A stretch of DNA of 64,000 nt. Origin: Vaginimicrobium propionicum (lineage in GTDB: Bacteria; Actinomycetota; Actinomycetes; Propionibacteriales; Propionibacteriaceae). Under the pieces are notes generated by a model, which was not told the origin of the DNA, made no database searches, and saw nothing but the letters and a program-made list of their open reading frames with translations. A program made the translations under genes and the position numbers. Of the stretch, positions 36,982-55,867 are shown piece after piece; position 1 is the stretch's first letter, and every line of letters starts with the position of its first letter. The DNA is taken from positions 1,240,001 to 1,304,000 of the forward strand of contig NZ_LT706985.1 in NCBI RefSeq assembly GCF_900155645.1. The letters run 5' to 3'.

Positions 36982-37785
36982 ATGACCCTCGGCATTGGCA
37001 CTTATGCCACCTTTTGGGAATGGTCATCCAGAAATCCGAACCCAATATCGTTGGCAGGCATGATTGAACGAACCCATGATTTAGGGTGTGAGGTTTTCCA
37101 AATTTGCGACTATCCGCAGATCGAGAAAATGGATACAGTTCAGCTGGAAGAAGTTAAAGCTCAGGCAGATGAACTTGGCATTGAGCTGGAGCTGGGCACC
37201 CGTGGCACAGACGTAAACCACCTCACGAAATACCTTGATATCGCCGATATTTTGGGGACGCGCACGCTGCGTTCTATGGTGCAGGTCGGTGATGGGAAAC
37301 CATCCCTGGAGCAATCTCTACAGAATGTCAAAAATTTGCTGCCCAGACTGCATGAACAAGAGGTGAAGCTCGCCTTTGAAACCTACGAGCAATTACCGAC
37401 CGCCAAACTAGTGGATTTCATCAAGCAAATAGCCGATCCAGCAGTCGGAATTGCCCTGGATCCGGCTAATTGCGTGGCTGGGCTTGAGCATCCTAACGAT
37501 GTAATCAGACGTTGTGCACCGTACACGATTAATTTGCATGTAAAAGATTTCGCTTTTTCACGGCGCACCGGGTGGGTCGGTTTCACTTATGCCGGAGCAA
37601 AAATGGGCGAAGGACTACTTGATTTTGCGTACGAAATTGAGCAGGTGCGTCCGGTCGAAAGAAATATCAACATGATCGTCGAGCATTGGTTGGTTTGGCA
37701 GGAGACCGCCGAGAAAACCATTGAGCTCGAACAGAAATGGACGCGCGACACCATCGAATATGTCCGCGCCCACCTCAAAAATTAG
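36982..37785 (+). CDS. Xylose-isomerase-like TIM barrel enzyme, candidate 3-oxo-isoapionate decarboxylase
   Basis: The 267-residue product has the metal-ligand set of the AP_endonuc_2/xylose-isomerase fold: E133 (AFETYEQ), D160 (IALDPAN), H186 (NLHVKDF) and E234 (IVEHWL). Members isomerise, epimerise or decarboxylate small sugars and sugar acids. It is preceded by the transporter after four bases and followed by the ApnO-like gene after 31 bases. In known D-apionate clusters a TIM barrel of this type (OiaC) decarboxylates 3-oxo-isoapionate to L-erythrulose. That specific role is inferred from neighbours; a plain isomerase is the alternative. Confidence 0.8.
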   Translation: MTLGIGTYATFWEWSSRNPNPISLAGMIERTHDLGCEVFQICDYPQIEKMDTVQLEEVKAQADELGIELELGTRGTDVNHLTKYLDIADILGTRTLRSMVQVGDGKPSLEQSLQNVKNLLPRLHEQEVKLAFETYEQLPTAKLVDFIKQIADPAVGIALDPANCVAGLEHPNDVIRRCAPYTINLHVKDFAFSRRTGWVGFTYAGAKMGEGLLDFAYEIEQVRPVERNINMIVEHWLVWQETAEKTIELEQKWTRDTIEYVRAHLKN

Positions 37786-37816
37786 ATAAAAATCAAACTC
37801 AAAAAGGAGAGACAAA

Positions 37817-38674
37817 ATGAGTGAAAATCTAAAAGTTGCGGTTATCGGTGCTGGCGGAAAAATGGGTCAACGAGTGTCTGCAAACCTAGAAAAAAAGGTT
37901 GGCTGGAAGACTTACTTTTGCGAGAACGGCGAAAAGGGCATAAAGACGGTCGAGGAGCTAGGTCGAAAGGTGACCCCTACTGATGAAATTATCAGTGAGG
38001 TGGATGTTGCTGTATTGGCTGTCCCGGACATTGCACTTGGCCCAGTGACTGCGGACGTCGCCCCGAAGATGAAACCAGGCGCCATGATTCTTACCCTTGA
38101 CCCGGCGGCTGCCTACGCCAACCTACTAACTGTGCGCGAAGACTTGGCCTACGCCGTCGCTCACCCAACCCACCCATCACTCTTCCTGGAACGCACCTCA
38201 AAAGAGGAGTGGGCTGACACCTTCGGCGGTGTTGCTGCCGCACAGTACTCTATGGCTGCGCTTCAACAGGGAAACGAATCTGACAAGAAACTAGCCACTG
38301 AGGTCATTGAAACCATTTATGCCCCTGTCATCAAGGTTCACTGGGTTTCCCTACATGATCTAGCAGTACTTGAGCCGACGCTAGCCGAAACCATCGGTTG
38401 CATGCTTGGCCAGTTTTGCCGCGACGCCCTCGACTACTGTGTCGAGGTGACCGACATGACCACTGAACAGGTAGAAGCAATGTTCTTTGGCCACATGTGG
38501 ATTGCGCTAACAAACGGGTTACGCGGTTCAAACCCCTTCTCAGATGCTTGCTTACTGGCCATGGACTACGGGCGCAACACCATCATCAAAGATGATTGGA
38601 AGAAAGTTTTCCAGGACGAAGACCTCGACCAGGTTCTTTGCAAGATGCTGAAGCTCGACAAAATTGAGCGTTAA
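37817..38674 (+). CDS. ApnO-like oxidoisomerase (phosphogluconate dehydrogenase C-terminal domain family)
   Basis: The 285-residue protein opens with the dinucleotide motif KVAVIGAGGKMGQRVSANLEK and has a Rossmann domain to about residue 130, then a helical domain with LTLDPAAAYANLL, AVAHPTHPSLFLERTSKEEWADTFGG and LRGSNPFSDACLLAMDYGRNTIIKDDW. This matches the family that includes D-apionate oxidoisomerase (ApnO), which uses NAD+ to turn D-apionate into 3-oxo-isoapionate. AAGGAG precedes the ATG by nine bases. The assignment of the family is firm; the substrate is inferred from the neighbours. Confidence 0.82.
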   Translation: MSENLKVAVIGAGGKMGQRVSANLEKKVGWKTYFCENGEKGIKTVEELGRKVTPTDEIISEVDVAVLAVPDIALGPVTADVAPKMKPGAMILTLDPAAAYANLLTVREDLAYAVAHPTHPSLFLERTSKEEWADTFGGVAAAQYSMAALQQGNESDKKLATEVIETIYAPVIKVHWVSLHDLAVLEPTLAETIGCMLGQFCRDALDYCVEVTDMTTEQVEAMFFGHMWIALTNGLRGSNPFSDACLLAMDYGRNTIIKDDWKKVFQDEDLDQVLCKMLKLDKIER

Positions 38675-38739: not shown

Positions 38740-39480
38740 TTAACTACGCGCCAACGTTTCTTTGGCAACCTCAAGGAAAGCCTTGGGATCGTGGGCGAAA
38801 CGTCCCAGGAAAAGCCCATCAATAGCGCTATCCAATTTGGTTATTAGCCCAGGCCCGGCTGAACCACCATAAAGAATCGTCACCGAAGACAATTCCGGCA
38901 AGCCCTCCCGAATATTGCGACAAACCTCAGACACATATTCGGAGCTAGCCGGCTCTGCTGCCCCAATAGCCCAGTAAGGCTCATAACCGAGCCACATTTC
39001 CGCAGGCGTACCGTATTTCAACGCAGAACGCACCTGCTCCACACATAGTTTTGCCGCTTGTTTGGCTGTGGTTTTCTCAGGCTCACCTATGCAAAGGAGT
39101 GGAATTATCCCGTTCCGTTTAGCCGCCAAAACTTTTTTAGCGACCATGTCATCGTCTTCACGGAAAATAGTTCTACGCTCAGCGTGCCCAATCTCGACTA
39201 TTCTGACGCCTAACTCCGCCAAGTCGGTACCAGAGACTTCGCCCGTAAAAGCGCCACGGTCTTCATAAGCCAAATCTTGAGCACCCAGAAAAATACCACT
39301 ATCTTTCAAAATTTCCGCAGCCTGCGGGACAGTCAAAAAATCTGGTAAAACTGCAAGCCGAACATTATCACTAAGACCAGACTCACCAACAATTAAACGT
39401 TTCAAATCACGACAATAATCCAAAGTTCGCGACCTGGTAAAATACATCTTCAGGCTTACAGCAGCCACCGGTTTATTCAT
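38740..39480 (-). CDS. Triose-phosphate isomerase family protein, candidate tetrulose-phosphate isomerase
   Basis: The 246-residue protein keeps the TIM catalytic set: Lys in AAVSLKMYFTRS, His in EIGHAERRTIF and Glu in GYEPYWAIG. The N-terminal SLKMY replaces the NWKMN of housekeeping TpiA, as in the TpiA2/EryH branch that acts on L-erythrulose 1-phosphate in tetrose catabolism. It is followed on the minus strand of the same operon by RpiB (RpiB is upstream by 31 bases). The pairing of these two isomerases is typical of erythritol and L-erythrulose routes. Confidence 0.87.
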   Translation of the reverse strand: MNKPVAAVSLKMYFTRSRTLDYCRDLKRLIVGESGLSDNVRLAVLPDFLTVPQAAEILKDSGIFLGAQDLAYEDRGAFTGEVSGTDLAELGVRIVEIGHAERRTIFREDDDMVAKKVLAAKRNGIIPLLCIGEPEKTTAKQAAKLCVEQVRSALKYGTPAEMWLGYEPYWAIGAAEPASSEYVSEVCRNIREGLPELSSVTILYGGSAGPGLITKLDSAIDGLFLGRFAHDPKAFLEVAKETLARS

Positions 39481-39511: not shown

Positions 39512-39946
39512 TTATTCAGCCTCATATTCACAAATTCGAGCAACCTTATCTTTGCTGCGCGAATTCGGATCAAACTCATTCTTAAGATATTCCTCTAAGA
39601 ACACCTCGGCAGACTTAATACCCACCACCTGAGAACCAATAGCAATCATATTTGCATTATTGCTAAGAGTGGCTCGCTGAGCCTGATAAACATCAGCAAC
39701 ACAAGCGCAATAAGCGCCTTTCACCTTGTTAGCCGCTATTGAAACGCCAATACCAGTGCCGCAAACCACAACACCACGGTCATATTCGCCAGCAGCTACG
39801 GCTTCAGCCACCGCAACAGCAACATTGGCATAAATAGGATCATCGGAACCAAAATCTTTAACCTCGTGACCTAATTCCTTAGCCTTAGCAATAAGAGCCT
39901 GCTTAAGCTCTGTAGCGTTTGGATCACAACCGAATGCGAGTTTCAT
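39512..39946 (-). CDS. rpiB: RpiB/LacAB-type sugar-phosphate isomerase
   Basis: The 144-residue protein has the signature VVCGTGIGVSIAANKVKG with the catalytic Cys, and RATLSNNANMIAIGSQVVG. RpiB proteins interconvert ribose and ribulose 5-phosphates; the EryI branch converts D-erythrulose 4-phosphate to D-erythrose 4-phosphate. Its position at the head of an operon with a TpiA-like enzyme favours the tetrose role. An inverted repeat lies upstream of the start and may bind the DeoR regulator at 41080. Confidence 0.9.
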   Translation of the reverse strand: MKLAFGCDPNATELKQALIAKAKELGHEVKDFGSDDPIYANVAVAVAEAVAAGEYDRGVVVCGTGIGVSIAANKVKGAYCACVADVYQAQRATLSNNANMIAIGSQVVGIKSAEVFLEEYLKNEFDPNSRSKDKVARICEYEAE

Positions 39947-40117: not shown

Positions 40118-41080
40118 ATGAGTGATATGAAATATAGGCGGTTAGGTGATTCTGGTCTTAGCGTTTCTGTTTTGGGGTATGGCGCGAATAACTTAGGTCG
40201 AAAAGGCTCAGCTTCAGAAGATATTGCAGGCGCAAAGAAAGTTGTGGATGCCGCCCTGGATGTAGGCGTGACATATTTTGACACAGCAAACGTATATGGG
40301 CACGAACCGGGATTATCAGAAACGCTGCTGGGTAAGGCATTAGGTAATCGTCGCAACGATATCGTGATTGCAACTAAATTCGGGCTGCCAGTTGCAGGCG
40401 AACCTAAAGAATTGGCACGCGGATCGCGTCGCTACATTATGAAACAATGCGAAGCCTCTTTACGACGACTCGGCACCGATTGGATCGACCTTTATTACTA
40501 TCATTCCCCTGACTCTCTAACCCCAATTACTGAAACAATTGACGCGCTAGACAATTTGGTAGATCAAGGAAAGATTCGCTACTACGGTGTGTCAAATACG
40601 ACTGGATGGCAATTGGCAGACGCATGGCATAATTCACGTCCGGGGCGTCTAGTAGCAACACAAAATCATTACAATCTTCTGGATCGGCGAGCCGAACAGG
40701 AAATCGTTCCGGCAGCACAGCATTTCGGTTTAGGATTAGTTCCCTATTATCCGTTGGCGGCAGGCATATTGACAGGAAAATACACTCAGTCAGTGCCACA
40801 AGATGCCCGCTTAAAGCCAGGGGATCCCAAACTTGCTGCAGCTAATTTTGACGCATTACGCGCATACCAGGATTTCTGCTCCCAACGCGATATGCAACAG
40901 GCCTCAGTAGCAATTGCTTGGCTTGCTTCCCATTCTCCGGTGGCATCAATTATTGCCGGAGCTACACGTCCTGAGCAGATCCGCAAAAACGCCCAAGCAG
41001 TTGAGCTTGAATTAAGCATGGATGATTTAGCGACGTTAGACGAGATTTTCCCCCGTCCAGAAAAGGTTGCATTGTTCTAA
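40118..41080 (+). CDS. Aldo/keto reductase
   Basis: The 320-residue protein is a TIM-barrel reductase with LGYGANNLGR, GVTYFDTANVYG (catalytic Asp and Tyr), VIATKFG (Lys), DLYYYHSPD (His) and the C-terminal NADPH loop SIIAGATRPEQIRKN. It belongs to the class that includes voltage-gated channel beta-like and L-glyceraldehyde-3-phosphate reductases. It reduces or oxidises a sugar or aldehyde with NADP(H). Its stop overlaps the DeoR start (TAATG). Confidence 0.9.
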   Translation: MSDMKYRRLGDSGLSVSVLGYGANNLGRKGSASEDIAGAKKVVDAALDVGVTYFDTANVYGHEPGLSETLLGKALGNRRNDIVIATKFGLPVAGEPKELARGSRRYIMKQCEASLRRLGTDWIDLYYYHSPDSLTPITETIDALDNLVDQGKIRYYGVSNTTGWQLADAWHNSRPGRLVATQNHYNLLDRRAEQEIVPAAQHFGLGLVPYYPLAAGILTGKYTQSVPQDARLKPGDPKLAAANFDALRAYQDFCSQRDMQQASVAIAWLASHSPVASIIAGATRPEQIRKNAQAVELELSMDDLATLDEIFPRPEKVALF

Positions 41081-41907
41081 TGGATGATGAGATTGAGGCC
41101 AAACTTGCTGTACCACCATCAAAGCAAGATTTGAGGCGCGACGCGATAACCGAACGCGTTCTTGAGATTGGATCTATCCGAATAGATACGCTCGTCGATG
41201 AACTCAATGTGTCACGAATGACGATTCACCGCGATCTGGATGCCTTGGAGGCTCGCGGTGTGCTGCGTAAATCTAGAGGTGTAGTGACTGCAGTAGCGTC
41301 AAGCCTATTTGAGGCGTCAACTGATTATCGTTTGCGGCAACAATCTGCAGAAAAGCGCGCGATTGCCAAACTAGCGTTTGATCTTATTGAACCTGGGGAA
41401 GCGATCGTACTAGACGACTCAACAACAGGCTTGAATTTAGCCGAATTGTTGCCCCAAAAAGAACCTCTAACAGTTATCACCAATTTTGGGCGCGTCCTAG
41501 ACATGCTTTATGGCAAGAGAGGCATTTCACTTATCTCCACGGGTGGGGAATATTACCAACTATGTGACGCCTATAAAGGCAACTTGGCTCTTTCAGCTTT
41601 AAGCCAGTTGAGCGCGGATACATATTTCATGTCCACACCTGCCGTCAGCAATGGCGTTTGTTTCCACCAACAACCTGAGCTGATTCAAGTTAAACGTGCC
41701 ATGTTCCAGTGCGCAAAAAAGCGTGTATTGATTGCTGACCATACGAAATTCTATAAACGGGCGTTGTATTCGATGATGCCAATACGCGAATTCGACATTG
41801 TTATTTCCGACGCGGCATTGAGTCGCGAACATGTGACTGAGATTCGACGAAGTGGCGTCCAATTAATCATTGCAAAGACGCGTCCGGGAAAAACTGAAAT
41901 CAGTTAG
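41080..41907 (+). CDS. DeoR family transcriptional regulator
   Basis: The 275-residue protein has an N-terminal DeoR helix-turn-helix (ERVLEIGSIRIDTLVDELNVSRMTIHRDLDALEARGVLRKSRGVV) and a DeoRC sensor domain with AIVLDDSTTGLNLAELLP and RVLIADHTKFYKRALY. Such regulators bind phosphorylated sugars. It is translated with the aldo/keto reductase. The likely targets are that gene and the divergent rpiB/tpi operon. It converges on the operon at 41948, leaving 40 bp. Confidence 0.92.
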   Translation: MDDEIEAKLAVPPSKQDLRRDAITERVLEIGSIRIDTLVDELNVSRMTIHRDLDALEARGVLRKSRGVVTAVASSLFEASTDYRLRQQSAEKRAIAKLAFDLIEPGEAIVLDDSTTGLNLAELLPQKEPLTVITNFGRVLDMLYGKRGISLISTGGEYYQLCDAYKGNLALSALSQLSADTYFMSTPAVSNGVCFHQQPELIQVKRAMFQCAKKRVLIADHTKFYKRALYSMMPIREFDIVISDAALSREHVTEIRRSGVQLIIAKTRPGKTEIS

Positions 41908-41947: not shown

Positions 41948-43342
41948 TTAGAGTCTCGTCAGCTTATTGTTGAGAATCTTGTCGGAGAAATTGTTATATT
42001 TACCAATTTCCCATTCACCGTTGATCATGTCCCAAACTATGGTGGTCAGAAGGTTAGCGAATTCTTCGTCAAGAATATGGTGATCCGTCCAGATGAGATC
42101 TACCACATTCGGATCAACCTTCAACCACATCCGCTGCAACATTGCAGTTGCTCTGCGCGACCATTGCGGATATTTTTCATCGGGTTCCCAAACGGGACCA
42201 TCACCATTGCCTTCCGCCCAACCACGCTCACGAGTGCACAAGGCTGCTTCCTGATCATAGGCTGACCAACCACGCATTGGGATGACAAATGCGCACGGAC
42301 CTTTGGAACCGTTCAAGGTTTCAGCGAGAAAATCCGAAAGCTCGATAATTTCCGGGATAGTGGGCACCATCTCGGTGACGTTCTCGTTGTGAATGTAAGG
42401 CTTACCAGTATCGCGGAAACCTTTACGTTTACCGGTGCGGAAGTCCTCTAGGTATTCTTCCTTCATTGTTTCAAAAGCGCCATAGGCACATTGATCCAAA
42501 CCTCCAGGGGCAACCACATTTGGGATTCCCATGTCAGGAGCGGCAGTCATACGTACGCCCCGCCAAGTTTTAGGCGTACCGTAAACGGAATCGTACATGT
42601 TGTTAGTCAATTCGCCAGGTGTCATATCAACAACAGCAGTGATGTCACCAGAGCGAATCAGGTCTTCCATAGTCGCGCCGACACCAACAGCATGGAAAGT
42701 TGAGCAATCCCACCCGTGATCGTTGAAGAAATTAGTAATTCTCATCTGGGTGGGCGTCGTCGTCCCATAGCTAGTAACGGCAGCCAACGGACGACCAATC
42801 GGAGGATCATCAACCTTGGCCATAGCAACGATGCCTGCACAAGCTTGCGTAACGATCTTTGATGTTACGGCCGTGATGCCTTGCTCAGCGGTTGGCGAAA
42901 CAATGAAAATATCTTTATTGCCTAGCCATCCTGACACGTCCGATGACGCCATGTCGGTCATCAGAATCTTGGGAACGCCAAATGGCAGCGCCCGCATCAC
43001 AATGGACACAGTGGTGGATCCCACCGAACCAGCCCAGCTTATGATGCCGTCACAACGTCCTTCTTCGCGTAGCTTGAGAGCCATTTGGGCGCCAGCTTCA
43101 CCAAGTTTTTTGATCGCGTCGGCACGTGGGCCAGCAAATACCTCATCCATGTCCAAGGACGCCAACTCGCCAACATCATGGTTGGAAATGTCAGCGAAAT
43201 CTACACTTCCACCAAGCGAAAGATCCATAATCACAGGTTCGCCACCGTTGGCACGAACCTGTTCGGCAAGGAATTGGATTTCCGTGCCTTTTGTATTGCA
43301 CATCCCCGTGCAGAGAATGACGGGCTTACCATTCTTATTCAT
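41948..43342 (-). CDS. UPF0261 (Tm-1-like) protein
   Basis: The 464-residue protein starts NGKPVILCTGMCNTKGTEIQFLAEQVRANG, with DGIISWAGSVGSTTVSIVMRALPFGVPKILMTDMAS and NVVAPGGLDQCAYG further on. These are the signature segments of UPF0261, the bacterial counterpart of the N-terminal domain of the tomato Tm-1 resistance protein, which binds ATP. The reaction is unknown. It is the last gene of the RuBisCO-like operon and follows a PEP-hydrolase-family barrel; in plants and fungi these two are fused into one protein, so they probably work as a pair. Confidence 0.88.
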   Translation of the reverse strand: MNKNGKPVILCTGMCNTKGTEIQFLAEQVRANGGEPVIMDLSLGGSVDFADISNHDVGELASLDMDEVFAGPRADAIKKLGEAGAQMALKLREEGRCDGIISWAGSVGSTTVSIVMRALPFGVPKILMTDMASSDVSGWLGNKDIFIVSPTAEQGITAVTSKIVTQACAGIVAMAKVDDPPIGRPLAAVTSYGTTTPTQMRITNFFNDHGWDCSTFHAVGVGATMEDLIRSGDITAVVDMTPGELTNNMYDSVYGTPKTWRGVRMTAAPDMGIPNVVAPGGLDQCAYGAFETMKEEYLEDFRTGKRKGFRDTGKPYIHNENVTEMVPTIPEIIELSDFLAETLNGSKGPCAFVIPMRGWSAYDQEAALCTRERGWAEGNGDGPVWEPDEKYPQWSRRATAMLQRMWLKVDPNVVDLIWTDHHILDEEFANLLTTIVWDMINGEWEIGKYNNFSDKILNNKLTRL

Positions 43343-43370
43343 CTGTTACTCCTTATGTCACCGGTGACTA

Positions 43371-44201
43371 TTAGTTATTGAGTGCGTCTTTATATTCGCG
43401 AGTGATTTCCAGAATCGCTTTTTCAATCGGGACGCGTTCAGCCGCAGAACCACCTATAAACCCGTGAGCAGAGGTGTTTTTAATTACATGAGCCGCCTCG
43501 GCAGGACCTTTGATAGGGCCGCCGTGGGCGAACAAGATAACATCGGGATTTTCTTTGAGAGCAGCATCGAAAATCAGCTGGCTTCGTTCAGTGGCCTCGT
43601 CGAGCGTCATATTGGACGCCGCACCTTTGAGCCCACCGACGGTCGAACCAAAGTGGGTTGCTATGGAGTGCGCGCCAACGCTGGCCATCACTTTAGCTTC
43701 CTCGGGAGTAAATGCGTATGCGAGGGTAAACATGTCCATTTTTACGGCCGTTTCGACGAATTCGACCTCGCGTTGCCAGCCGATGCCAATTTTGTCCATC
43801 TGGGCAACCGTTTCGTCCCCGTAGATCTTGATCATGAACGGGTTGATGCCGCTAACGCCAGCCTCTCGGAGGCGCTCGAGATGTTCTTTATGAGGCAATA
43901 GCGGGTTGAAAGCTCCAGATAGGGTCAAGATTGGGGCGTCAGAAACATTGGCAACAACCTCGGGAAGAAGATTGAAGATAATCTCGTTGATGTCGCTGTT
44001 TGGCATTAGCGCCGAAAGGGATCCCTGCCCTTTCATCCGCCAGTAGCTGGTTGCCGAGGTGATGATTAAATCAGCACCACCCATTTCTTGTAGTTTCGCT
44101 GACAACCCAAACCCGCAGTTTGGTGCGAACAGCGGTTTGCCAGTGCTGATCTCTTCGCGTAACCGTGACGTGACTTCATTTGCTGTGTAGAGTCGTGCCA
44201 T
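43371..44201 (-). CDS. PEP hydrolase family TIM barrel (second half of Tm-1-like pair)
   Basis: The 276-residue protein reads GKPLFAPNCGFGLSAKLQEMGGADLIITSATSYWRMKGQGSLSALMPNSD, with SGINPFMIKIYGDE, AHSIATHFGSTVGG and LFAHGGPIKGPAEAAHVI. This is the PF09370-type TIM-barrel family annotated as phosphoenolpyruvate hydrolase-like, which resembles PEP mutase/isocitrate lyase-type barrels and is the C-terminal half of plant Tm-1. It lies between the amidohydrolase and UPF0261 genes in one operon. Activity unproven. Confidence 0.85.
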   Translation of the reverse strand: MARLYTANEVTSRLREEISTGKPLFAPNCGFGLSAKLQEMGGADLIITSATSYWRMKGQGSLSALMPNSDINEIIFNLLPEVVANVSDAPILTLSGAFNPLLPHKEHLERLREAGVSGINPFMIKIYGDETVAQMDKIGIGWQREVEFVETAVKMDMFTLAYAFTPEEAKVMASVGAHSIATHFGSTVGGLKGAASNMTLDEATERSQLIFDAALKENPDVILFAHGGPIKGPAEAAHVIKNTSAHGFIGGSAAERVPIEKAILEITREYKDALNN

Positions 44202-44244
44202 TTCATTCTCCTTTGAATAGTTGGGACCGGCTGCTAGATTCCGG

Positions 44245-45114
44245 TCAGAGTTGGTAGCGATTCAAAAATGTTGACGAATGTGCATCGCGAATTGCGACAA
44301 CATCTTCGGCTGAGATCACAGGATCGGGGGTCTCCTGTAACTCAGAAATAAGTAAGTCGAGGTTGCCCAGTGTTTTTTCGTAACTGTAAAGGGGCATATC
44401 AGATCCAAATAGAATCCGATCTACAGCCCCAGCCCAGGTCTTGACCTTCGTGATGAGATCACGCAGCGGGTAGGTCTGGAGGTTTGGATCGCGTCCGATC
44501 ACAGAGCTGATATCGACGTAAACGTTTGGGTGCTTTCGCAGCAGACCTGCCGTCCGCGAGAAGTCGATGCGTCCGGCATGCCCCAAGATGGCGGGCATCT
44601 GTGGAAAATCGCAGAACACTGAATCAAAACGGCTAACGTTCGTATATCTGTCATTGAGCGGGAGGACACCGATATCACCAGAGTGAAAAAGAACGGGCTT
44701 TTGAGCTTCTTCCAACACTTTGTAGATCGGCCACAGCCCAGGATCATCAACACCCATGTTTTGAAATGCCCCATGGAACTTTAGACCTTTGTGGCCGTCA
44801 GCTATTGCCTCTGCAACGATCATCGCCGCATTCGGGCTGCGCGGATTCACGCAACAAAACGGAATTAGACGCTTGGGGTATTTGCTGCATTCACGCAGAA
44901 CAAAATCGTTGATGCGCCTGATGTGCTCGTCAGATAGATCTGGTTCATAAGCGAGTGCAACAGCGATCGATGCGTCAATGCCGTTTTTGTCCATGGAAGA
45001 AACTAATGTTTCACCATCACAGGAAAGTGAGCGACTGGAGTCATAACTCCTAATCTGGGGCGGAATGTCCGATTCTTCCCAAATATGAGCGTGGACGTCA
45101 ACGCGCTTGATCAT
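44245..45114 (-). CDS. Amidohydrolase family 2 (TIM-barrel) enzyme
   Basis: The 289-residue product has the metal-site motifs of the PF04909 branch: DVHAH near the start, FHGAF and LFHSGD, LGHAG, and RILFGSDMP near the end (catalytic Asp). Family members hydrolyse or decarboxylate cyclic or aromatic acids and lactones. Its start overlaps the RuBisCO-like gene stop by four bases, so they are translationally coupled. A lactonase or a carboxylate lyase fits a sugar-acid pathway. Confidence 0.87.
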   Translation of the reverse strand: MIKRVDVHAHIWEESDIPPQIRSYDSSRSLSCDGETLVSSMDKNGIDASIAVALAYEPDLSDEHIRRINDFVLRECSKYPKRLIPFCCVNPRSPNAAMIVAEAIADGHKGLKFHGAFQNMGVDDPGLWPIYKVLEEAQKPVLFHSGDIGVLPLNDRYTNVSRFDSVFCDFPQMPAILGHAGRIDFSRTAGLLRKHPNVYVDISSVIGRDPNLQTYPLRDLITKVKTWAGAVDRILFGSDMPLYSYEKTLGNLDLLISELQETPDPVISAEDVVAIRDAHSSTFLNRYQL

Positions 45115-46361
45115 TTGACCACCCCGAATACGTCTAGTGCAGTTGATAACTCAGCGTGTTCTTTGGCTGCTTCTTCCAATGTCACTCCATCCATGTAGGA
45201 GTCAATTGCTTGATACATTGCCCGAACACCTGCGGCAGGCCCTTGCGGATGGCCTTGAATAGCCCCACCTGAGGCCAAAATAATGTCCGTACCTAAGTCG
45301 TCTAGGTATCGGTGCACAACCCCAGGCTTAACTCCACCACCGACAACGGGGAATGACGGTCGCAAATCACCGGCTGGTGCTAGCAGTTTGCGTGCTGTCG
45401 CTAAATACGCCGCCTTCCTCATGGGGTAGCCACTGTAGGGGGTATTGATAACTGCCATATCAGCACCCACTAGCCTTGGGAAAAACCCGAGCGCCAAAGC
45501 AGCTGACATCCCCGATGACGCGTTCTCGTAGTAGGTGTTGGCTGAGGCGTAATGGCCGAGGATGGGAACGTCGAACCTTTCCCGCAATTCGACAACACTG
45601 CCATAGCCGACCGCTGCATAGCACACCATGAGGGCACGCGCGCCGGCATTGACCGCGCGTTTAGCATTCTCGAACAAGGTTGTACCTTGAGCAGTGATGT
45701 TAGGTACATAGATGGTTCTGTGACCGGTTTCTTCAAAGGCCTGCTCTGCGGCTTTGTTATATGCTGCGACACGCTGATCAATGGGAGAAAACTCTGGATC
45801 CCCCATAAGCTCATCGTCTTTGATTAGGTCAGGAGCACCTAATGCTGTCTTGCGGAAGATTTCACTTCCCTGAGCAGGTGTTAGACCAGTGCATGGTTTG
45901 ATCATATTGAGCAGAAGCGGGCGAGATTGGACGCCTAGAACCTTTCGCAGCCCAGCCACGCCGTACTTTGGACCCGAAAACCCGCTTGTCATCGACGCGG
46001 GCAGTTGAACCTCAGTAAGCTTTGCTGCCATTGAGGTTGAGGCATCATTGCCCAGCAGAGCGGTAAACAGACGAGGAACATCAGCTCCAATACTCACCGC
46101 AGGTAAGGCGAGAGTTGCTGCATATGTTGCGACACCTTGATCGTCCGTAACTAAATCGCTGGGATCTAAGCTCGTAATGTCGACGACTTCACCTTGATAT
46201 TTGTCAATCATTTCCTTTGTCAAGCCAGGTACTTCTACCCATGTTCCAATGGTTTGGCCTACAGCAAAGGCTCGAACTTTTTCTAATGGGTCAACATTGG
46301 CGGGGATGGAAAAGGTGTATGTCGCGAGAACCGCATCATTCTTGTTATACGCCTGGGACAT
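45111..46361 (-). CDS. RuBisCO-like protein (form IV)
   Basis: The product (416 residues) keeps the RuBisCO barrel: K155 in NMIKPCTGLTP, the carbamylation motif K181-D182-D183-E184, the histidine in PILGHYASANTY, and ASGGAIQGHPQGPAAG for phosphate binding. The loop-6 lysine needed for CO2 fixation is not visible, so it is not a carboxylase. Known form IV proteins act in methionine salvage or decarboxylate/transcarboxylate 3-oxo-isoapionate 4-phosphate (OiaX, OiaT). ATG 46361 lies behind AAGGAG. It heads a four-gene operon. Confidence 0.92.
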   Translation of the reverse strand: MSQAYNKNDAVLATYTFSIPANVDPLEKVRAFAVGQTIGTWVEVPGLTKEMIDKYQGEVVDITSLDPSDLVTDDQGVATYAATLALPAVSIGADVPRLFTALLGNDASTSMAAKLTEVQLPASMTSGFSGPKYGVAGLRKVLGVQSRPLLLNMIKPCTGLTPAQGSEIFRKTALGAPDLIKDDELMGDPEFSPIDQRVAAYNKAAEQAFEETGHRTIYVPNITAQGTTLFENAKRAVNAGARALMVCYAAVGYGSVVELRERFDVPILGHYASANTYYENASSGMSAALALGFFPRLVGADMAVINTPYSGYPMRKAAYLATARKLLAPAGDLRPSFPVVGGGVKPGVVHRYLDDLGTDIILASGGAIQGHPQGPAAGVRAMYQAIDSYMDGVTLEEAAKEHAELSTALDVFGVVK

Positions 46362-46392
46362 GTTACTCCTTCTCATCACTGAAAATGTTACA

Positions 46393-46402
46393 TATCATGA
46401 TA
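46393..46402. promoter_or_regulatory. Short palindrome in the divergent promoter region of the RuBisCO-like operon
   Basis: TATCATGATA is a perfect 10-base palindrome within the 106-bp gap between the RuBisCO-like and metallo-hydrolase genes. It may be an operator for both; the evidence is only position and symmetry. Confidence 0.35.
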
Positions 46403-46467
46403 CATAAACCGTCATTCATGTGATAACAATACATGAAAATTGTTATATTTTGGTATTAAGCCCATCA

Positions 46468-47553
46468 ATGAGTAAGGATAAATCTGTGGAAACGGTTGAT
46501 ACACACATTGTTCTTCTCGGTACAGCAGGCGGCGCAGTCACATGGGGCTCTGCGGGCACGTCTACTGCATGCCGATACGGGACTTCGACAGCTCTAGTCG
46601 TTGCTGGAAAGATTTATATTGTCGATTTCGGCATGGGGGTTGCTCGGCAGCTAACCAGGGCAAATCCCCTGGGGCGTCCTGAAGCGAAAATTTTTGAAGA
46701 TCTGCAAGCAATGTTTATTACACATATGCATTCTGATCACACCTTGGATCTGTCAAACCTATTGTTATGTGGATACAACCAAGGGTGGCCGTCGCATCGA
46801 GTTGAGGTTTATGGCCCATGGGACAGAGTTCTTAGCCCTCATCTTTACTCAGACTTGCCAGAGTCAGACGTGTGGACACCAGGTGCTGAAAAATTTGTGG
46901 ATAATCTACTGTCCGCATTCGAGGCCGAAACTCTCGACAGAGTTTATGGCGCAAAGAAACGTGATCCGCACGACATGCTCGTCGGGGTCAACGTCCAACG
47001 TCCCAGGATAATCGGGCGTGACGCTCATGGGGACTTTAACCAATCCGGGAATTCTGATTCTCAGATGAACCTGGGGCACCTGGAAACACCTGTAGATCCG
47101 TTCTTTGTGTATGAAGACGATCGAGTACACGTGAGCGCAACATTGACAGAACATGGATCCATGTACCCTGCATTCGCCTACCGCTTTGACACAGATGACG
47201 GATCGGTAGTCTTTTCAGGTGATACTGGGCCTTCTGAGAACGTAATTCGGCTTGCCACAAATGCCGATGTGCTAGTTCATGAAGTAATCGACCCAAACTA
47301 TGCTCGGTGGCAATTCGGAAATCCTCCGTACACCCCCAAGCAGCAACAAGCGCTTGACGTAGTATTTCAGAAACACTGTTCGGTTGAAGTTGTGGGGGCG
47401 ATTGCCCAACGCTGTTCAGTGCGAACATTGGTACTAAACCATTTTGTTCCAGGCAATCTGCCACAAGGGTCATGGGCGTCAAAAGTGACAGGCTTCGACG
47501 GGCATGTCATCGAAGGTCGCGACCTAGACACCGTGCACCTTGCCAACGTTTAG
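46468..47553 (+). CDS. Metallo-beta-lactamase-fold hydrolase
   Basis: The product (361 residues) has the metal-binding motif THMHSDHTLD, an upstream strand IVDFGMGVARQL, VVFSGDTGPSENVIRLA with the Asp ligand, VLVHEVID, and LVLNHFVPG with the final His. The layout is that of the RNase Z/arylsulfatase-like metal hydrolase branch. It is divergent from the RuBisCO-like operon and probably hydrolyses an ester, lactone or phosphodiester of the same pathway. ATG 46468 is preferred, as residues before it look non-conserved. No signal peptide. Confidence 0.85.
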   Translation: MSKDKSVETVDTHIVLLGTAGGAVTWGSAGTSTACRYGTSTALVVAGKIYIVDFGMGVARQLTRANPLGRPEAKIFEDLQAMFITHMHSDHTLDLSNLLLCGYNQGWPSHRVEVYGPWDRVLSPHLYSDLPESDVWTPGAEKFVDNLLSAFEAETLDRVYGAKKRDPHDMLVGVNVQRPRIIGRDAHGDFNQSGNSDSQMNLGHLETPVDPFFVYEDDRVHVSATLTEHGSMYPAFAYRFDTDDGSVVFSGDTGPSENVIRLATNADVLVHEVIDPNYARWQFGNPPYTPKQQQALDVVFQKHCSVEVVGAIAQRCSVRTLVLNHFVPGNLPQGSWASKVTGFDGHVIEGRDLDTVHLANV

Positions 47554-48078: not shown

Positions 48079-49080
48079 TCAGAATCCCTTGCGCGAATTT
48101 GCGACATTTTTCCCTAAATTGACCGCAATATTAAAAGCACGCTGAGTTGGTCCTAGAGAAGCCTTATTTTGACCGACAATGTTGTATGCCGTTCCATGAG
48201 CCGGAGTCGCAATGGGGACGGGCAGCCCACCCTGAACAGTGACACCGCCATCGAATCCCATTAGCTTCATGGCGATTTGCCCTTGGTCATGGTACATGGT
48301 CACGACCCCGTCATAGTCGCCGTTACGGGCTGCGATGAATATCGTGTCACACGGGAACGGTCCAGCCGCGTTTATGCCGTCTACCTGAGCCAACTTCACA
48401 CCCGGAGCGATGTGATCAATCTCCTCGCGTCCAAATTGACCATTTTCACCGGCGTGTGGATTCAAAGCACACACCGCCAACCTAGGTTTTTCAACGCCAT
48501 TGCCTTTAATAACGTTGTCAAGCAGCTTGATGGCCTCATAGACCGAACGAGCATTAATTCGTCTCGGCACATCTGCAATTGAGCAGTGCGAAGTGACCCG
48601 GCTAGTGGTCAGATTCTCCACAAAGTTCAGCTCAGAGGTAGTGCCGTCATAACCAAGTTCTTTGGCGAACCAACGCAACTCATCCTCTTCATGCATTCCA
48701 GCGTCATGAAGTGCTGTCTTGTTCAACGAGAGGAACATAATGGCGTCGGCTTCGCCCTTCTTATACATGTCCAGACAATCCAACAAATCTTGCATAACTC
48801 GCCTACCGCCAGCGATTGACGTCCTCCCACGCTCTACGGGCTGATCGGCATACTTTGAACCAACTAATGTAACCTTCCCCGGCGTCGGTTCGGTAGCAGT
48901 TGGCACTTCCACACCCACTTCGGCCGAAAAATGATCGACCTCCGCTTGTGAAGCGAGTAGCCGGATATCGGCACGATTTCGATTGTCCTCTATATCCAAA
49001 AGTTTCATAGCTAGTTCAGGACCGACTCCTGACAAATCGCCAAGAGTTAAAGCTAGTTTTGGCAGACTAGATGCAGACAT
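48079..49080 (-). CDS. PdxA-family dehydrogenase (PdxA2 type)
   Basis: The product (333 residues) shows the PdxA core: LALTLGDLSGVGPELAMK, CALNPHAGENGQFGREE, AAGPFPCDTIF and MYHDQGQIAMKLMGFDGGV, with the metal-binding histidines. PdxA enzymes oxidise 4-phosphohydroxy-threonine with NAD; PdxA2 paralogues oxidise and decarboxylate 4-phospho-D-threonate or -erythronate to dihydroxyacetone phosphate. Its position in a sugar-acid operon, with no other pyridoxine genes nearby, favours the PdxA2 role. ATG 49080 fits the family N-terminus (MSASSLPKLALTLGD). No DUF1537 kinase, the normal partner, is present in the window. Confidence 0.88.
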   Translation of the reverse strand: MSASSLPKLALTLGDLSGVGPELAMKLLDIEDNRNRADIRLLASQAEVDHFSAEVGVEVPTATEPTPGKVTLVGSKYADQPVERGRTSIAGGRRVMQDLLDCLDMYKKGEADAIMFLSLNKTALHDAGMHEEDELRWFAKELGYDGTTSELNFVENLTTSRVTSHCSIADVPRRINARSVYEAIKLLDNVIKGNGVEKPRLAVCALNPHAGENGQFGREEIDHIAPGVKLAQVDGINAAGPFPCDTIFIAARNGDYDGVVTMYHDQGQIAMKLMGFDGGVTVQGGLPVPIATPAHGTAYNIVGQNKASLGPTQRAFNIAVNLGKNVANSRKGF

Positions 49081-49213
49081 ACCTAATAGATTCCTTCCTA
49101 ACAAAATAAAAAACGATCAATTGTCATTTACGAATACATTCAATTTTTTTGAATTATTGCCAGCCCATCACGGGCGAGAATAATGCGAAACACAAAATGC
49201 TAAATAAATAATG

Positions 49214-50515
49214 CTAAAGTTCACCAACTTTTTGTGCCTCTTTGCGCTGGGCAAGTTCCCGTTTAACGGCGGGGGTAAGAAGCACGGCCATAACACCAGC
49301 CATCACTACGGAGGCGCCAAACACAACTGTGGCAAAGGGCGTTGACCCGGTGGCGTCGGTTATCCAACCCCCAACGTATGGACCGAGGAAGCCGCCAAGA
49401 TTTCCGATACCGTTGATTATTCCGAATCCGGCGCCCACCGCAGCCGGCTTAACCAAAATTGAGTTCATCGTCCAGTAAGACCCAAAGAAAGAAAGCTGAC
49501 AGGCTTGAGCGATGGCGAATATCCCAACAATCAGCCAGCGCATATCAGCGGTGACGAACGTAGATAACGCCAAAATTATGCCGCCGAGAATGAGCGGAAC
49601 CGCAACACGAAAGTTATATCGTCCGTCCTTGTCAGCACCACGACCGTTTAAATAGATGGCAATCGCCGTTACTACCGGAGGAATAGCAGACACCAAGCCA
49701 ACTTCCATATCAGTGGTAAAAGATTGTTTGAGCAGCGTTGGCAGCCACATCTGAAGCCCGTAAAAACCGAACCAAACAAAGAATCCCAAGAGCGCCATTA
49801 GCCAAACGAATGGTGAACGAACTGCAGCACGCCAGTCAGACTCGACCGCAGGGCGCTCTTCGGATTTGCGCTTCGTCTCGATTAGTTGACGTTCATCCTG
49901 GGATGCCCAACGCGCCTTATCAGGAGTATCGGCACCGAAAGCCCACCAGATTGCCAGGCCTAGGATGGGAAGCAGACCTTGGATTATGAATAACAAACGC
50001 CAATCACCAAACGACAAGATTAAACCGGCAAATGGGCCGGTGATAAGTGTCGCAATCGGATTATGCATAATGAAGAATGAATTGGCGCGTGTTTTTTCTG
50101 ATAGTGAGAACCAGCGATTAATCATAACCATGAGCGCTGGTTGAACGCCGCCCTCAAAAACACCCAGCAGAAACCGAGCAGCCAAAAGCTGTCCGAAAGA
50201 AGTAACAAGACCCTGAGCAATCGCCATAATGCCCCAGAGCACCATAAGAATGGTTACGACCTTCTTCGCACTCCATTTTTGAGCCAGGTAGCCACCAGGA
50301 ACCTGCAATATCAGATATCCGATAAAGAATATGCCTGACGCGAAACCCGCCTGCGATGCTGACATATTCAAGGCTTCGCGTATTTGAGTTAAACCAAAAC
50401 CAATGTTGACCCGGTCAATATACGCAATTATATAAATAAACATTATGACCGGGATAAGAATTGTCCACCGCCGGTTTAATTTTTTCCGGTCACCTGCGAC
50501 TACACTAGCATTCAT
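49214..50515 (-). CDS. MFS transporter, anion:cation symporter type
   Basis: The 433-residue protein has twelve helices, FIYIIAYIDRVNIGFGL in the first helix, QKWSAKKVVTILMVLWG after helix 2 and FLLGVFEGGVQPALMVMINRWFS in helix 4-5, as in sugar-acid and hydroxy-acid importers. It starts four bases after the cyclase gene stop and is cotranscribed with it. It gives the locus a second uptake route beside the TctCAB system. Confidence 0.9.
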   Translation of the reverse strand: MNASVVAGDRKKLNRRWTILIPVIMFIYIIAYIDRVNIGFGLTQIREALNMSASQAGFASGIFFIGYLILQVPGGYLAQKWSAKKVVTILMVLWGIMAIAQGLVTSFGQLLAARFLLGVFEGGVQPALMVMINRWFSLSEKTRANSFFIMHNPIATLITGPFAGLILSFGDWRLLFIIQGLLPILGLAIWWAFGADTPDKARWASQDERQLIETKRKSEERPAVESDWRAAVRSPFVWLMALLGFFVWFGFYGLQMWLPTLLKQSFTTDMEVGLVSAIPPVVTAIAIYLNGRGADKDGRYNFRVAVPLILGGIILALSTFVTADMRWLIVGIFAIAQACQLSFFGSYWTMNSILVKPAAVGAGFGIINGIGNLGGFLGPYVGGWITDATGSTPFATVVFGASVVMAGVMAVLLTPAVKRELAQRKEAQKVGEL

Positions 50516-50518
50516 GAT

Positions 50519-51211
50519 TTAGGCCTCCAACGCCACAGCTCTAATTGGCGAACCATCGCAGCCCGTTATCTTTAGAGGCAATCCAAAAAATATGAATCGC
50601 TTTTGCCTGAGGGCGCGAAAATTACTTAAATATTCAAATTGGGGAATTCCGAATCTCAATAATTCTAGGTGACATGCTTCGTCTTCATCTACGTCCTCAC
50701 TAGAAAGATAATTGGGATCGTAAGCTGCGCGAATACTTCGATCTTGCGGAAAATCAAATGCAGTCGCTTTTACCTTAAGCTCCCTCAAATAGCGTGCTCC
50801 CGACAGACTTACCCAAGGAGATACCGTCCAATATTCCTTAGTGGCGGTCGGGTGACGGAGCTCTTGATCGGAACGCAAAAGCACAATGTCACCTGCCTGG
50901 ACCTGTGCGCATTTCGATTCAAGCACTTCGCGATTTATCTCTGCATTGTCACCAAGATCACTCAAATCTACAACGGTTGCAGAACCCCAAAATGGCTCTA
51001 GTCCCATATTGTCGATAGTCGTCATATTCCGGTCAACGTGAAAAGGAGCATCGACATGACTAAAACCATGCGACATAATCTTGATTTCCGTCGTATGAAA
51101 AACAAACTGGGGTCGTGCAGTATACTTAGAAATTCTAGAAAGCGGAAATCTCCAATGGTCTTCTATGGGCATTGACAAATCAACAATCCGCATATTTTCT
51201 TTAAGATTCAT
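50519..51211 (-). CDS. Cyclase family hydrolase
   Basis: The product (230 residues) begins MNLKENMRIVDLSMPIEDHWRFP and has the metal-binding signature SHGFSHVDAPFHVD, ALEFDFPQDRSIR-type strand and a late HLELLRFGIPQFEYLSNF. This matches the PF04199 family, which includes kynurenine formamidase and other cyclic-amide or lactone hydrolases. ATG 51211 lies downstream of a strong hairpin at 51281-51321; the longer frame to 51319 would run through it. It is followed by an MFS gene and a PdxA2 gene. Confidence 0.8.
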   Translation of the reverse strand: MNLKENMRIVDLSMPIEDHWRFPLSRISKYTARPQFVFHTTEIKIMSHGFSHVDAPFHVDRNMTTIDNMGLEPFWGSATVVDLSDLGDNAEINREVLESKCAQVQAGDIVLLRSDQELRHPTATKEYWTVSPWVSLSGARYLRELKVKATAFDFPQDRSIRAAYDPNYLSSEDVDEDEACHLELLRFGIPQFEYLSNFRALRQKRFIFFGLPLKITGCDGSPIRAVALEA

Positions 51212-51280
51212 ATCAACTTCTTTATACGACGATATAAAGTGTTTTATTCTTTGAGATAGATTAATAATTCGTGCAACCAC

Positions 51281-51321
51281 CATTGGGGAGGCGAATACTC
51301 TCGATGATCGCCTCCCCAATG
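51281..51321 (-). terminator. Hairpin between the TctC and cyclase genes
   Basis: CATTGGGGAGGCGA and TCGCCTCCCCAATG form a perfect 14-base stem with a 13-base loop. There is no U-tract, so it may act as an RNA stabiliser or partial terminator that sets TctC levels apart from the downstream genes. Confidence 0.7.
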
Positions 51322-51360
51322 GGCAGCATTTCCGAAGAATTACAATTGCCTCAAAGCAAC

Positions 51361-52338
51361 CTACTTGCCTAAACCGGCCTTTAGATCCTTTTCGTAATCT
51401 TCCAGATATTTGGAGAAATCGTCACCAAACAAAGTATCGGTTTGCATATAATTACTGCTCATATATTCCTTGAATGCATCAGATGCGGTATATTCTTTAG
51501 CGGCGCTGATCCAATACTCCTTGGCCTCGTCACTAATACCCCCAGGAGCAATCACTCCACGGAACTGAGCAAAGGTAACATTGATGCCTTGCTCGATAGT
51601 GGTCGGAATGTCCTTCAACTCTTCATATTCATAACGCTTATCGGCGATAACACACAATGCTTTCATATCCCCAGACCCAAGCTGACCCATAACTTCACTC
51701 GGGTTAGTCAGCGCAACATCGACGTGGCCACCCAGCGCTGCAGCTATGGCCTCGCCGCCGGATTCGTACGGAACCCGCTGGAAAGTGACATTTTGATCTT
51801 TTTCAATCAGGCCAAACTGAATCGCATCATTGCCAGTTACGCCACCCGAGACGGCAACCTTCACGTCCTTGGTTTTAGCTTCCTTCACTACGTCGGCGCA
51901 CGTACCAAATGAAGAATCTCTCGGGACGACCATTATTGTGGAGTCCTGACCAACCTTCATAATTGGAGTGAACGAACGCCAGCTGAACGGAACATCCTCA
52001 GTCAAGGCCAGATTAATCAGCGCGGTTTCTGTAGCAAGCAGATACGAAGCATCACCTTCGTGACCCATAAAAGCCGCGTAACCAACAGCACCACCGCCGC
52101 CCTGTTGGTTCTCTACGCTGATAGTTTTACCAACAATTGGCTCTAGCCCTGAAGCTATCGCCCGTCCAGACATATCCGAACCACCACCCGGCGCCATTGG
52201 CACGATCATGGTTAGCCGGTTGCCTGGATTAAAACTCGCATCCGCTTTTTCGGAGCTACCTCCGCCTCCGCTGCAAGCCGTCAAAGTCAAGACAGAGGCA
52301 GCTAAGATAGCGCCCAACGCGGTGACTTTCTTCATCAT
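51361..52338 (-). CDS. Tripartite tricarboxylate transporter substrate-binding lipoprotein, TctC type
   Basis: The product (325 residues) starts MMKKVTALGAILAASVLTLTACSGGG, a lipoprotein signal with the lipobox LTAC. The mature part has GNRLTMIVPMAPGGGSDMSGRAIASGLE, ending in the helical region typical of Bug/TctC proteins, which bind carboxylic acids outside the membrane. AGGGAGG precedes ATG 52338. It is the last gene of the TctB-TctA-TctC transcript. Confidence 0.9.
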   Translation of the reverse strand: MMKKVTALGAILAASVLTLTACSGGGGSSEKADASFNPGNRLTMIVPMAPGGGSDMSGRAIASGLEPIVGKTISVENQQGGGGAVGYAAFMGHEGDASYLLATETALINLALTEDVPFSWRSFTPIMKVGQDSTIMVVPRDSSFGTCADVVKEAKTKDVKVAVSGGVTGNDAIQFGLIEKDQNVTFQRVPYESGGEAIAAALGGHVDVALTNPSEVMGQLGSGDMKALCVIADKRYEYEELKDIPTTIEQGINVTFAQFRGVIAPGGISDEAKEYWISAAKEYTASDAFKEYMSSNYMQTDTLFGDDFSKYLEDYEKDLKAGLGK

Positions 52339-52428
52339 TGTTTTCCTCCCTAATTGCGCTTCGGCGTCTTTGCCGCAGCCCATTGATTGATTCAGTTGTT
52401 TTCTTATTCGCTATTTTTCAACAGGGTT

Positions 52429-54027
52429 TTAGACAGGTTCATTGTCTTGAGCTTCAGAGTTTTTTGTGGCAATAGTTGATTCCACCGGTTTATTCAGAGC
52501 AGAAATATTTGGTTCGCTATTTTCCGGAGAACTCTTTTTCGCATTATTTCGACTTAACTTGCTCATAAGTTTCTTCATTAATGCCGGGACGGTCATGATC
52601 AACACGGTCAGCACTAAAACTGCAAGCGCTAGAGGCTCCCGGAAAATAACAGTCAAGTCTCCATTAGCGTAGGCAGAAGTCTGCACTAGGGCTCGTTCCA
52701 CCATAGGCCCAAGAACTAGGCCGAGGATTAACGGCGCGGTCGGGTAATCATATTTCTTAAAGAAGAACCCTGCGACACCAGCGAAAAATAACACCACTAG
52801 GGCAAAAATATTGTTGCCAACTGCGAATGCTCCCATTAGCGAGAAGAAGATAATCAGCGGATACAAATAGGAATACGGCAGCCTTAGAGCCTGTGCGAAC
52901 ACCGGAGCCAATGGCAAGTTCAATACCAACAAAATCACATTGCCGATAAAGAAAGATGTCAGCAGACCCCAAACAAGATTTGGCTGAGAGTCGAAAAGCA
53001 ATGGGCCTGGCTGTAGCCCATACATAACGAAGGCACCCAGTAACACTGCGGTTGTCGTTCCACCAGGGACGCCCAAGGCCAAGGTTGGTATGAAGTTGGC
53101 ATTTGCGGCAGCATTGTTGGCGGACTCTGCGGCCGCAACACCCTGAATTGCGCCTTTGCCAAACATCTTGCGATACGGGCTCACTTGCTTTTCTACTCCA
53201 TATGCAACAAGAGACGCTAGCGTCGAACCAGCCCCCGGCAAAGTTCCTAGTAAAAATCCGACTCCAGTGCCACGACCGATAGCTGGCAATGACTCTTTAA
53301 TGTCTTTTGGTTTTATGACCATGTCACGCATACGTGTGCGTATTGGCTTTACACCGCCTTGACCAACTTGACTTAAGACTTCTCCGATAGCGAAGACACC
53401 GATCATTACCACGACGAAATCAATGCCACCTAGCAATTGAACATTGCCGAAAGTGAAACGCGATTCAGCGAAGCCTGTGGACATGCCTACTGTGGATAGA
53501 AACAGCCCGATGCCCGCCATCATTAAACCTTTAGCTAAGTTTTCACCGGAAAACGAAATAATGGTTAGCAAACCCATTATCATGATTGCCAGCATTTCTG
53601 CAGGGCCGAATTTAAGAGCAAAATGTGCGATTGGAGCCGCCAGCAGCATGAGCAGGATTAGCGAAACTATAGCCGCACAGAATGAGCCTATAGCAGCTAT
53701 AGCTAACGCTTTTCCAGCTTTCCCTTTTCTCGCTAACGCATATCCATCTACAACAGTAGCCACAGCATTCGCATCACCTGGAGTTGCAATTAGGACAGCC
53801 GCGATAGTGCCGCCATATTGGCAACCATAGTAAATGCCCGCCAGCATAATTAGTGCGGTTACTGGATCCATACTGAGTGTGAGCGGCAGAAGAATTGCTA
53901 CTCCAGTAGTCGCCCCTAAGCCTGGCAACATTCCAATAACTGTGCCCAGGACAACACCTATTAGACACCAGAGTAGATTCTCAGGAGTTAGCGAAGTACT
54001 GAATCCTAAGATAAGATTTTCTAACAT
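52429..54027 (-). CDS. Tripartite tricarboxylate transporter large membrane subunit, TctA type
   Basis: The 532-residue protein has about twelve helices and the TctA signatures VIGMLPGLGATTGVAILLPLT, GIYYGCQYGGTIAAVLIATPGDANAVAT, and ESANNAAANANFIPTLALGVPG. This subunit forms the channel for uptake of citrate-like acids energised by an ion gradient. A C-terminal tail of about 40 hydrophilic residues is extra. AGGGG precedes the start. Confidence 0.93.
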   Translation of the reverse strand: MLENLILGFSTSLTPENLLWCLIGVVLGTVIGMLPGLGATTGVAILLPLTLSMDPVTALIMLAGIYYGCQYGGTIAAVLIATPGDANAVATVVDGYALARKGKAGKALAIAAIGSFCAAIVSLILLMLLAAPIAHFALKFGPAEMLAIMIMGLLTIISFSGENLAKGLMMAGIGLFLSTVGMSTGFAESRFTFGNVQLLGGIDFVVVMIGVFAIGEVLSQVGQGGVKPIRTRMRDMVIKPKDIKESLPAIGRGTGVGFLLGTLPGAGSTLASLVAYGVEKQVSPYRKMFGKGAIQGVAAAESANNAAANANFIPTLALGVPGGTTTAVLLGAFVMYGLQPGPLLFDSQPNLVWGLLTSFFIGNVILLVLNLPLAPVFAQALRLPYSYLYPLIIFFSLMGAFAVGNNIFALVVLFFAGVAGFFFKKYDYPTAPLILGLVLGPMVERALVQTSAYANGDLTVIFREPLALAVLVLTVLIMTVPALMKKLMSKLSRNNAKKSSPENSEPNISALNKPVESTIATKNSEAQDNEPV

Positions 54028-54036
54028 CTCAAACCC

Positions 54037-54609: not shown

Positions 54610-54704
54610 TCAGACCGACAACTGAAATAGCCGGTTTGATTCATAATTAATTCGCAAACTGTCATTTTTAAGGAATTACGAACTTTGACCAATGGGACAT
54701 AGAT

Positions 54705-55850: not shown

Positions 55851-55867
55851 ACTGACAATCAGCAACC

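Follow-up and report, generated by a model that had tools for sequence, protein, structure and literature searches.

Within the 64,000-nucleotide window analysed here (positions 1,240,001 to 1,304,000 of contig NZ_LT706985.1 of Vaginimicrobium propionicum, whose genome is a single contig of 2.01 Mb), a four-gene operon encodes a RuBisCO-like protein (RLP), an amidohydrolase, a PF09370 barrel and a UPF0261 protein, and is flanked by a divergent gene for a metallo-beta-lactamase-fold (MBL) hydrolase. The operon is a conserved module of the Actinomycetota, its RLP is neither OiaX nor MtnW, and its UPF0261 and PF09370 proteins form a dedicated pair of the kind fused in plant Tm-1, a virus-resistance protein of tomato. 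That it constitutes the core of a catabolic module so far undescribed is a proposition that we regard as evenly balanced. We put forward as a tentative and still doubtful possibility that UPF0261 and PF09370 together make up an ATP-dependent small-molecule kinase of two subunits (or a cleaving enzyme) feeding a new RLP isomerase.

Results

Organization and conservation of the operon

The open reading frames of the four operon genes and of the divergent metallo-hydrolase lie where the first-pass annotation of this DNA had placed them, and Pfam matches to the N- and C-terminal domains of UPF0261, PEP_hydrolase (PF09370), Amidohydro_2 and RuBisCO_large, all above cutoff, establish the gene set as real (Table 1). 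On the minus strand the genes run head to tail from the RLP through the amidohydrolase and the PF09370 barrel to UPF0261, with a 4-nt overlap between the first two, gaps of 43 nt and then 28 nt, and a good ribosome-binding site before each of the last two. The true RLP start is probably an internal ATG near 46361, preceded by AAGGAG and giving a protein of about 416 aa, rather than the less supported GTG at 46379. The MBL gene begins 40 bases past the RLP, and the gap between them holds the palindrome TATCATGATA (46391-46404), a candidate operator for which no counterpart was found in the RLP-MBL gaps of relatives; promoter and terminator scans gave no excess over shuffles.

The same four-gene order is found in Arcanobacterium urinimassiliense (locus L004, 87-94% identity), the closest named relative found (87% in the RLP), in an actinomycetote metagenome-assembled genome (L005/L074, RLP 58%) and at L078 (RLP 51%), the latter two being genomes of the same family. 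A DeoR regulator accompanies the operon at L004, L005 and L078 (65-95% identity), and the MBL hydrolase has an orthologue at L004 (79%) and L078 (48%). Among 393 genomes drawn from the order, operon-type UPF0261 is restricted to those bearing the operon: identity is 69-70% to the order's other operon copies and drops to 35% for the next matches. A family-wide search added one genome, with UPF0261 at a contig edge, and a phylum-wide draw recovered operon-type UPF0261 at 49-52% identity in four genomes of another class, all small and low in GC. In all four, an operon-type PF09370 gene (55-60%) adjoins UPF0261 and an amidohydrolase (34-39%) is present, while an RLP (41-42%) lies less than 2 kb from UPF0261 in three of them, the fourth contig being only 10 kb long. 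At L167 the order reads sugar ABC transporter, PF09370, UPF0261, major facilitator superfamily (MFS) transporter, RLP, triose-phosphate isomerase (TPI), MBL, xylose-isomerase-like protein, PF09370, amidohydrolase, PF09370. The preservation of content despite a rearranged order is strong evidence for a shared pathway. Since the gene set keeps its order in at least three further genomes and turns up again, rearranged, in another class, it is more than a product of chance, and the co-occurrence of these neighbours, on which the first-pass annotation had made its pathway depend, is borne out.

The RuBisCO-like protein

The phylogenetic position of the RLP was assessed with two trees, of 52 and 43 rows; no DeepYkr reference (R. 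rubrum RLP, R. palustris RLP1) was among their rows, nor among the plasmid matches listed. The operon RLPs, that of the window included, come out together (support 100/98 and 99/98) and nest in a larger clade (100/99) whose other members, the sister RLPs, have no Tm-1-type pair. The clade as a whole stands beside MtnW at 95/88, or at 99/96 in an unresolved three-group fork after addition of the f15 RLPs, and a split supported at 100/99 sets it apart from OiaX and its relatives. Against the NCBIfam OiaX model (NF042437) the RLP scores 187.3 bits, the cutoff being 700, and against the two MtnW models it scores 256 and 295 bits, below their cutoffs of 514 and 409.

In the alignment, the RLP keeps the carbamate lysine K201 together with D203, E204, K175, N123, H294, T65, W66, G381, G403 and G404, and it replaces R295 by Y, H327 by V, K334 by G and S379 by G. 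The position of K177 is taken by C, and the full catalytic RuBisCO site for ribulose bisphosphate (K177, R295, H327, K334, S379) is hence not present. R295 and K334 are retained in OiaX and its relatives, the majority of which also have H327 and S379. K98, the base of MtnW, is N in every row of clade A, clade B and f15. In RuBisCO, the kept glycines, T65 and W66 make up the P1 phosphate site, and the residues lost here belong to the P2 side. The conservation of the P1 site and the loss of P2-side residues therefore point to a substrate that is mono-phosphorylated and neutral at its far end, and so speak against a sugar acid. Likewise, the retained metal and P1-phosphate sites suggest that the RLP would act as an enolising isomerase for a mono-phosphorylated ketose.

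Two identities were considered for the RLP and rejected. The first-pass annotation had read it as an OiaX/OiaT relative acting on 3-oxo sugar acids, and this is contradicted by the tree split, the OiaX model score and the loss of R295, K334, H327 and S379. A grouping with methionine-salvage enolases had been named as the outcome adverse to that reading; the RLP does stand beside MtnW (95-99% bootstrap) but is not MtnW itself, given the absence of K98 and of the salvage partners MtnA (TIGR00512) and ARD (PF03079), neither of which has a match in the genome.

Other groups of RLPs were also encountered. The sister RLPs (51-56% identity; L075, L076, L077, L079 and L080) often occur in clusters with a GlpK-like FGGY kinase, a glycerol-1-phosphate-dehydrogenase-like protein, a class II aldolase and HAD phosphatases; these clusters add E1/E2 dehydrogenase subunits and make up a second undescribed RLP context. 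A further clade (38-40%) is found at L081-L086, beside FGGY-type kinases at most loci and with two copies in some genomes.

The UPF0261/PF09370 pair

The location of the UPF0261 and PF09370 domains on adjacent genes, together with a fold match of UPF0261 to Tm-1, upholds the earlier claim that the two halves of Tm-1 are neighbours here. The UPF0261 model (pLDDT 84) resembles Tm-1 (TM-score 0.63-0.72) and also 9mpy, the structure of a UPF0261 protein from Novosphingobium with the ketone acetovanillone bound. The pairing itself is already published: 97.4% of bacterial genomes bearing TBST (PF09370) also have UPF0261, and plants fuse both (PMC5028733). What is new is the dedicated operon-type subfamily. 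The nine copies of operon-type UPF0261 form a clade of their own at 1.000, as do the eight of operon-type PF09370, and the branching orders of the two clades agree. At 17 of 104 UPF0261 positions that are near-invariant elsewhere, every operon copy is fixed to one other residue, and the same holds for seven of 60 positions in PF09370 (G28N, A29C, Y49S, D99N, N121P, D128G and S253A). The window genome carries, in addition, a second, ordinary UPF0261 gene, which lies with two PF09370 genes next to an ABC transporter of the branched-chain type. In the literature searched, which was partial in its coverage, neither a description of the normal function of UPF0261 and PF09370, both widespread, nor a paper joining RLPs to UPF0261 was found, and the novelty of the link is thus provisional. 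Two leads on the pair were abandoned: its role as a HpeHI-type kinase, taken from the acetovanillone-bound 9mpy, was dropped because HpeHI is an ATP-grasp/RPH-type enzyme, and the loss of the Asp of the GTxDTK motif from all operon UPF0261 proteins was withdrawn, since the L170 and f15 copies keep it.

Sugar kinases are frequent companions of other RLPs, and those encoded on plasmids on the OiaX side often adjoin DUF1537 kinases. As the first-pass annotation had noted for this locus, no such kinase accompanies the operon; indeed, DUF1537 (PF07005) has no match anywhere in the genome, and among the neighbours scanned neither an FGGY nor a DUF1537 kinase was found near the RLP in operon-type clusters. 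The Tm-1-type pair occupies the slot that a sugar kinase fills in other RLP clusters, and a kinase role for it is plausible purely by position.

The amidohydrolase and the MBL hydrolase

The metal ligands of the amidohydrolase (H8 and H10 of the HxH motif, H144, H179 and D239) are invariant in eight copies. The nearest solved folds to its model are amidohydrolase-superfamily decarboxylases (TM-score 0.65-0.71, about 18% identity), a likeness at superfamily level only, and the enzyme may be a lactonase, a hydrolase or a decarboxylase. For three MBL homologues, the best solved match is 8gyg, named an arylsulfatase, at low similarity; a related MBL follows the RLP and TPI at L167. Sulfatase, SPASM radical-SAM and anion-transporter genes follow UPF0261 at L170, and a gene of the 2-phosphosulfolactate-phosphatase family adjoins the amidohydrolase at L168 and L169. 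Taken together, the MBL match, the L170 sulfatase and the L168/L169 phosphatase-family gene are a weak lead towards a sulfur-ester substrate.

Neighbouring genes

The DeoR, aldo/keto reductase, RpiB and TPI genes lying just past the operon end belong to its functional neighbourhood. The TPI is a second paralogue, the canonical gene being located outside the window at 942449-943198 of the genome, and in RLP-linked TPIs the catalytic K, H and E are intact and S takes the place of the canonical N11; TPI genes lie near the RLP at L005, L075, L077, L079, L080 and L167. In the erythritol/L-erythrulose branch, EryH and EryI are TPI-like and RpiB-like isomerases. The window resembles that branch in that the operon has a second paralogue of TPI and an RpiB-type gene close by, but differs from it in lacking any equivalog-level match, and its RpiB reaches 125.6 of the 240 bits set for the D-erythrulose-4-phosphate isomerase model.

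Table 1. Features of the operon and its surroundings, in window coordinates unless marked otherwise
Feature	Position	Strand	Evidence and remarks
RuBisCO-like protein (RLP)	45111..46379	-	422 aa from GTG; Pfam PF00016, 141 bits; trees; kept site residues
Amidohydrolase-2 family enzyme	44245..45114	-	Pfam PF04909, 104.8 bits; alignment; model pLDDT 89
PF09370 (PEP_hydrolase/TBST) barrel, operon-type subfamily	43371..44201	-	Pfam 248 bits; 2p10, E 7e-46; separate clade
UPF0261 protein, operon-type, 464 aa	41948..43342	-	Pfam 143.8 + 117.1 bits; nearest folds Tm-1 and 9mpy
MBL-fold metallo-hydrolase, HxHxDH motif	46420..47553	+	Pfam Lactamase_B/B_2; best solved match 8gyg
DeoR-family regulator	41080..41907	+	Kept with the operon: 95% at L004, 65% at L005 and L078
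Aldo/keto reductase	40118..41080	+	Adjoins DeoR here and at L004 (89%)
RpiB-type isomerase	39512..39946	-	At L005/L074, a TPI that comes right after UPF0261 is likewise flanked by RpiB copies
Second, divergent TPI paralogue	38740..39480	-	S at the N11 position; catalytic K, H, E retained
Second UPF0261 and two PF09370 genes, by ABC transporter set	L043:3112-6087 (G000:C1 1306112-1309087)		Just past the window

Other catabolic genes were observed in the window. At 36982-38674, a xylose-isomerase-like barrel precedes a PGDH_C protein that matches 5t57, an ApnO, best among solved structures and shares 51% identity with a protein encoded next to an OiaX-side RLP at L087; the stretch is possibly a separate apionate route adjoining the MFS gene at 35634-36977. 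Genes for PdxA-like, MFS, cyclase, TctABC-type transporter, xylose-isomerase-like and DhaK-type kinase proteins at 48079-57586 form another catabolic cluster, with a PdxA-like gene present although no DUF1537 kinase was found in the genome. Further away, two transposase-like open reading frames with identical 388-aa translations (19900-21066 and 21800-22966) are a recent mobile-element duplication.

Discussion

From the observed gene set, its conservation and its dedicated paralogues we infer a chemistry and a substrate along the following lines. The amidohydrolase and the MBL hydrolase would most likely open or deblock the incoming compound, be it a lactone, an ester or a phospho- or sulfo-ester. 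The UPF0261/PF09370 pair would most likely be a two-subunit enzyme acting on the keto substrate, with ATP-dependent phosphorylation as our first choice of reaction, albeit one that falls somewhat short of probable, and C-C cleavage as a second and more doubtful choice. The RLP would most likely be a metal- and carbamate-dependent enolising isomerase or enolase acting on a mono-phosphorylated neutral C4-C5 ketose or dicarbonyl, with its phosphate in the P1 site, and its product would pass through the dedicated TPI-like isomerase (and the RpiB-type isomerase) to central metabolism. Several observations weigh against this scheme. At L004 and at L078, neither TPI nor RpiB adjoins the operon, and the stretches of L168 and L169 that were read showed no TPI. 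A DhaK-type kinase some 9 kb from the operon could supply the phosphorylation. The 9mpy structure contains a small ketone and does not tell which reaction UPF0261 catalyses, and HpeHI, the characterised two-component kinase of the acetovanillone pathway, is of the unrelated RPH type.

Instead of phosphorylating, the Tm-1-type pair may cleave a beta-keto compound in a retro-Claisen or aldol type of reaction, leaving the RLP to handle the product. PF09370 is a TIM barrel named for a PEP-hydrolase type, the N. aromaticivorans UPF0261 protein was solved with an aryl ketone bound, and this species is without VceA/VceB, which process the matching beta-keto acid in SYK-6; the kinase slot, however, would then stay unfilled, and UPF0261 is commonly named an ATP-binding family, as it was in the first-pass annotation. 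We consider such a cleavage possible, if doubtful. The weak sulfur lead can be extended to a module degrading a sulfate or sulfonate derivative, with the MBL protein as sulfatase and the remaining enzymes handling a desulfated polyol or acid. Beyond the 8gyg match and the genes at L168, L169 and L170 cited above in its favour, this proposal must contend with the fact that the low similarity of the MBL protein to 8gyg is shared with RNase Z and PNGM-1, that a sulfatase lies near one copy only, and that nothing else in the window operon is sulfur-related, all of which makes it very unlikely.

Known RLP functions offer further alternatives. The operon could encode a route for 3-oxo sugar acids like the OiaK/OiaX (OiaT) D-apiose/apionate pathways (Carter et al. 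2018, as cited in PMC6302742), with UPF0261 replacing the DUF1537 kinase. Both are catabolic clusters that contain an RLP and do not fix CO2; in one OiaX cluster, that of A. tumefaciens, OiaX is likewise preceded by an MBL protein, DUF1537 is missing from the genome, and genes for an ApnO-like and a xylose-isomerase-like protein are located 3-5 kb from the operon end. The window RLP, on the other hand, belongs to another branch and has a Tm-1-type pair for a neighbour where a DUF1537 kinase would be expected; moreover, with all four of R295, H327, K334 and S379 replaced, the pocket expected to bind the acid is lost. Such a route is therefore highly improbable. Of the pathway first proposed, then, the conserved module stands, its apionate-type chemistry does not, and the idea is retained here in changed form. 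Somewhat less remote, yet still improbable, is a methionine-salvage function with incidental neighbours, either as the DK-MTP-1-P enolase MtnW (YkrW) or as a DeepYkr 5-methylthioribulose-1-phosphate isomerase. MtnW includes the nearest named relatives of the RLP, shares its metal and P1 sites and, like it, likely takes a single-phosphate substrate, and DeepYkr RLPs isomerise a ketose-1-phosphate, the very chemistry proposed here (PMC5893883). Nonetheless, the MtnW scores fall under both cutoffs, the K98 base is N and the S379 position G, MtnA and ARD were not found in the genome, and the neighbours are different ones, conserved across classes.

An RLP acting as an enolising isomerase in a conserved catabolic module remains the reading that we favour. 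Like the Tm-1-like UPF0261 and TBST proteins known to co-occur and co-evolve, and fused in plants (PMC5028733), the window pair holds both domains on adjacent genes, but it is a divergent, dedicated subfamily tied to an RLP and an amidohydrolase. The association of this pair with an RLP, an enzyme whose chemical logic is known, and with a TPI paralogue restricts the likely substrate to small keto compounds bearing phosphate, turns its identity into a question testable with four purifiable proteins, and adds a branch of RLP function beyond apionate catabolism and methionine salvage. If true, the proposed scheme would assign a metabolic function to the two proteins that plants join in Tm-1, and would add a new reaction class to those of the RuBisCO-like proteins.

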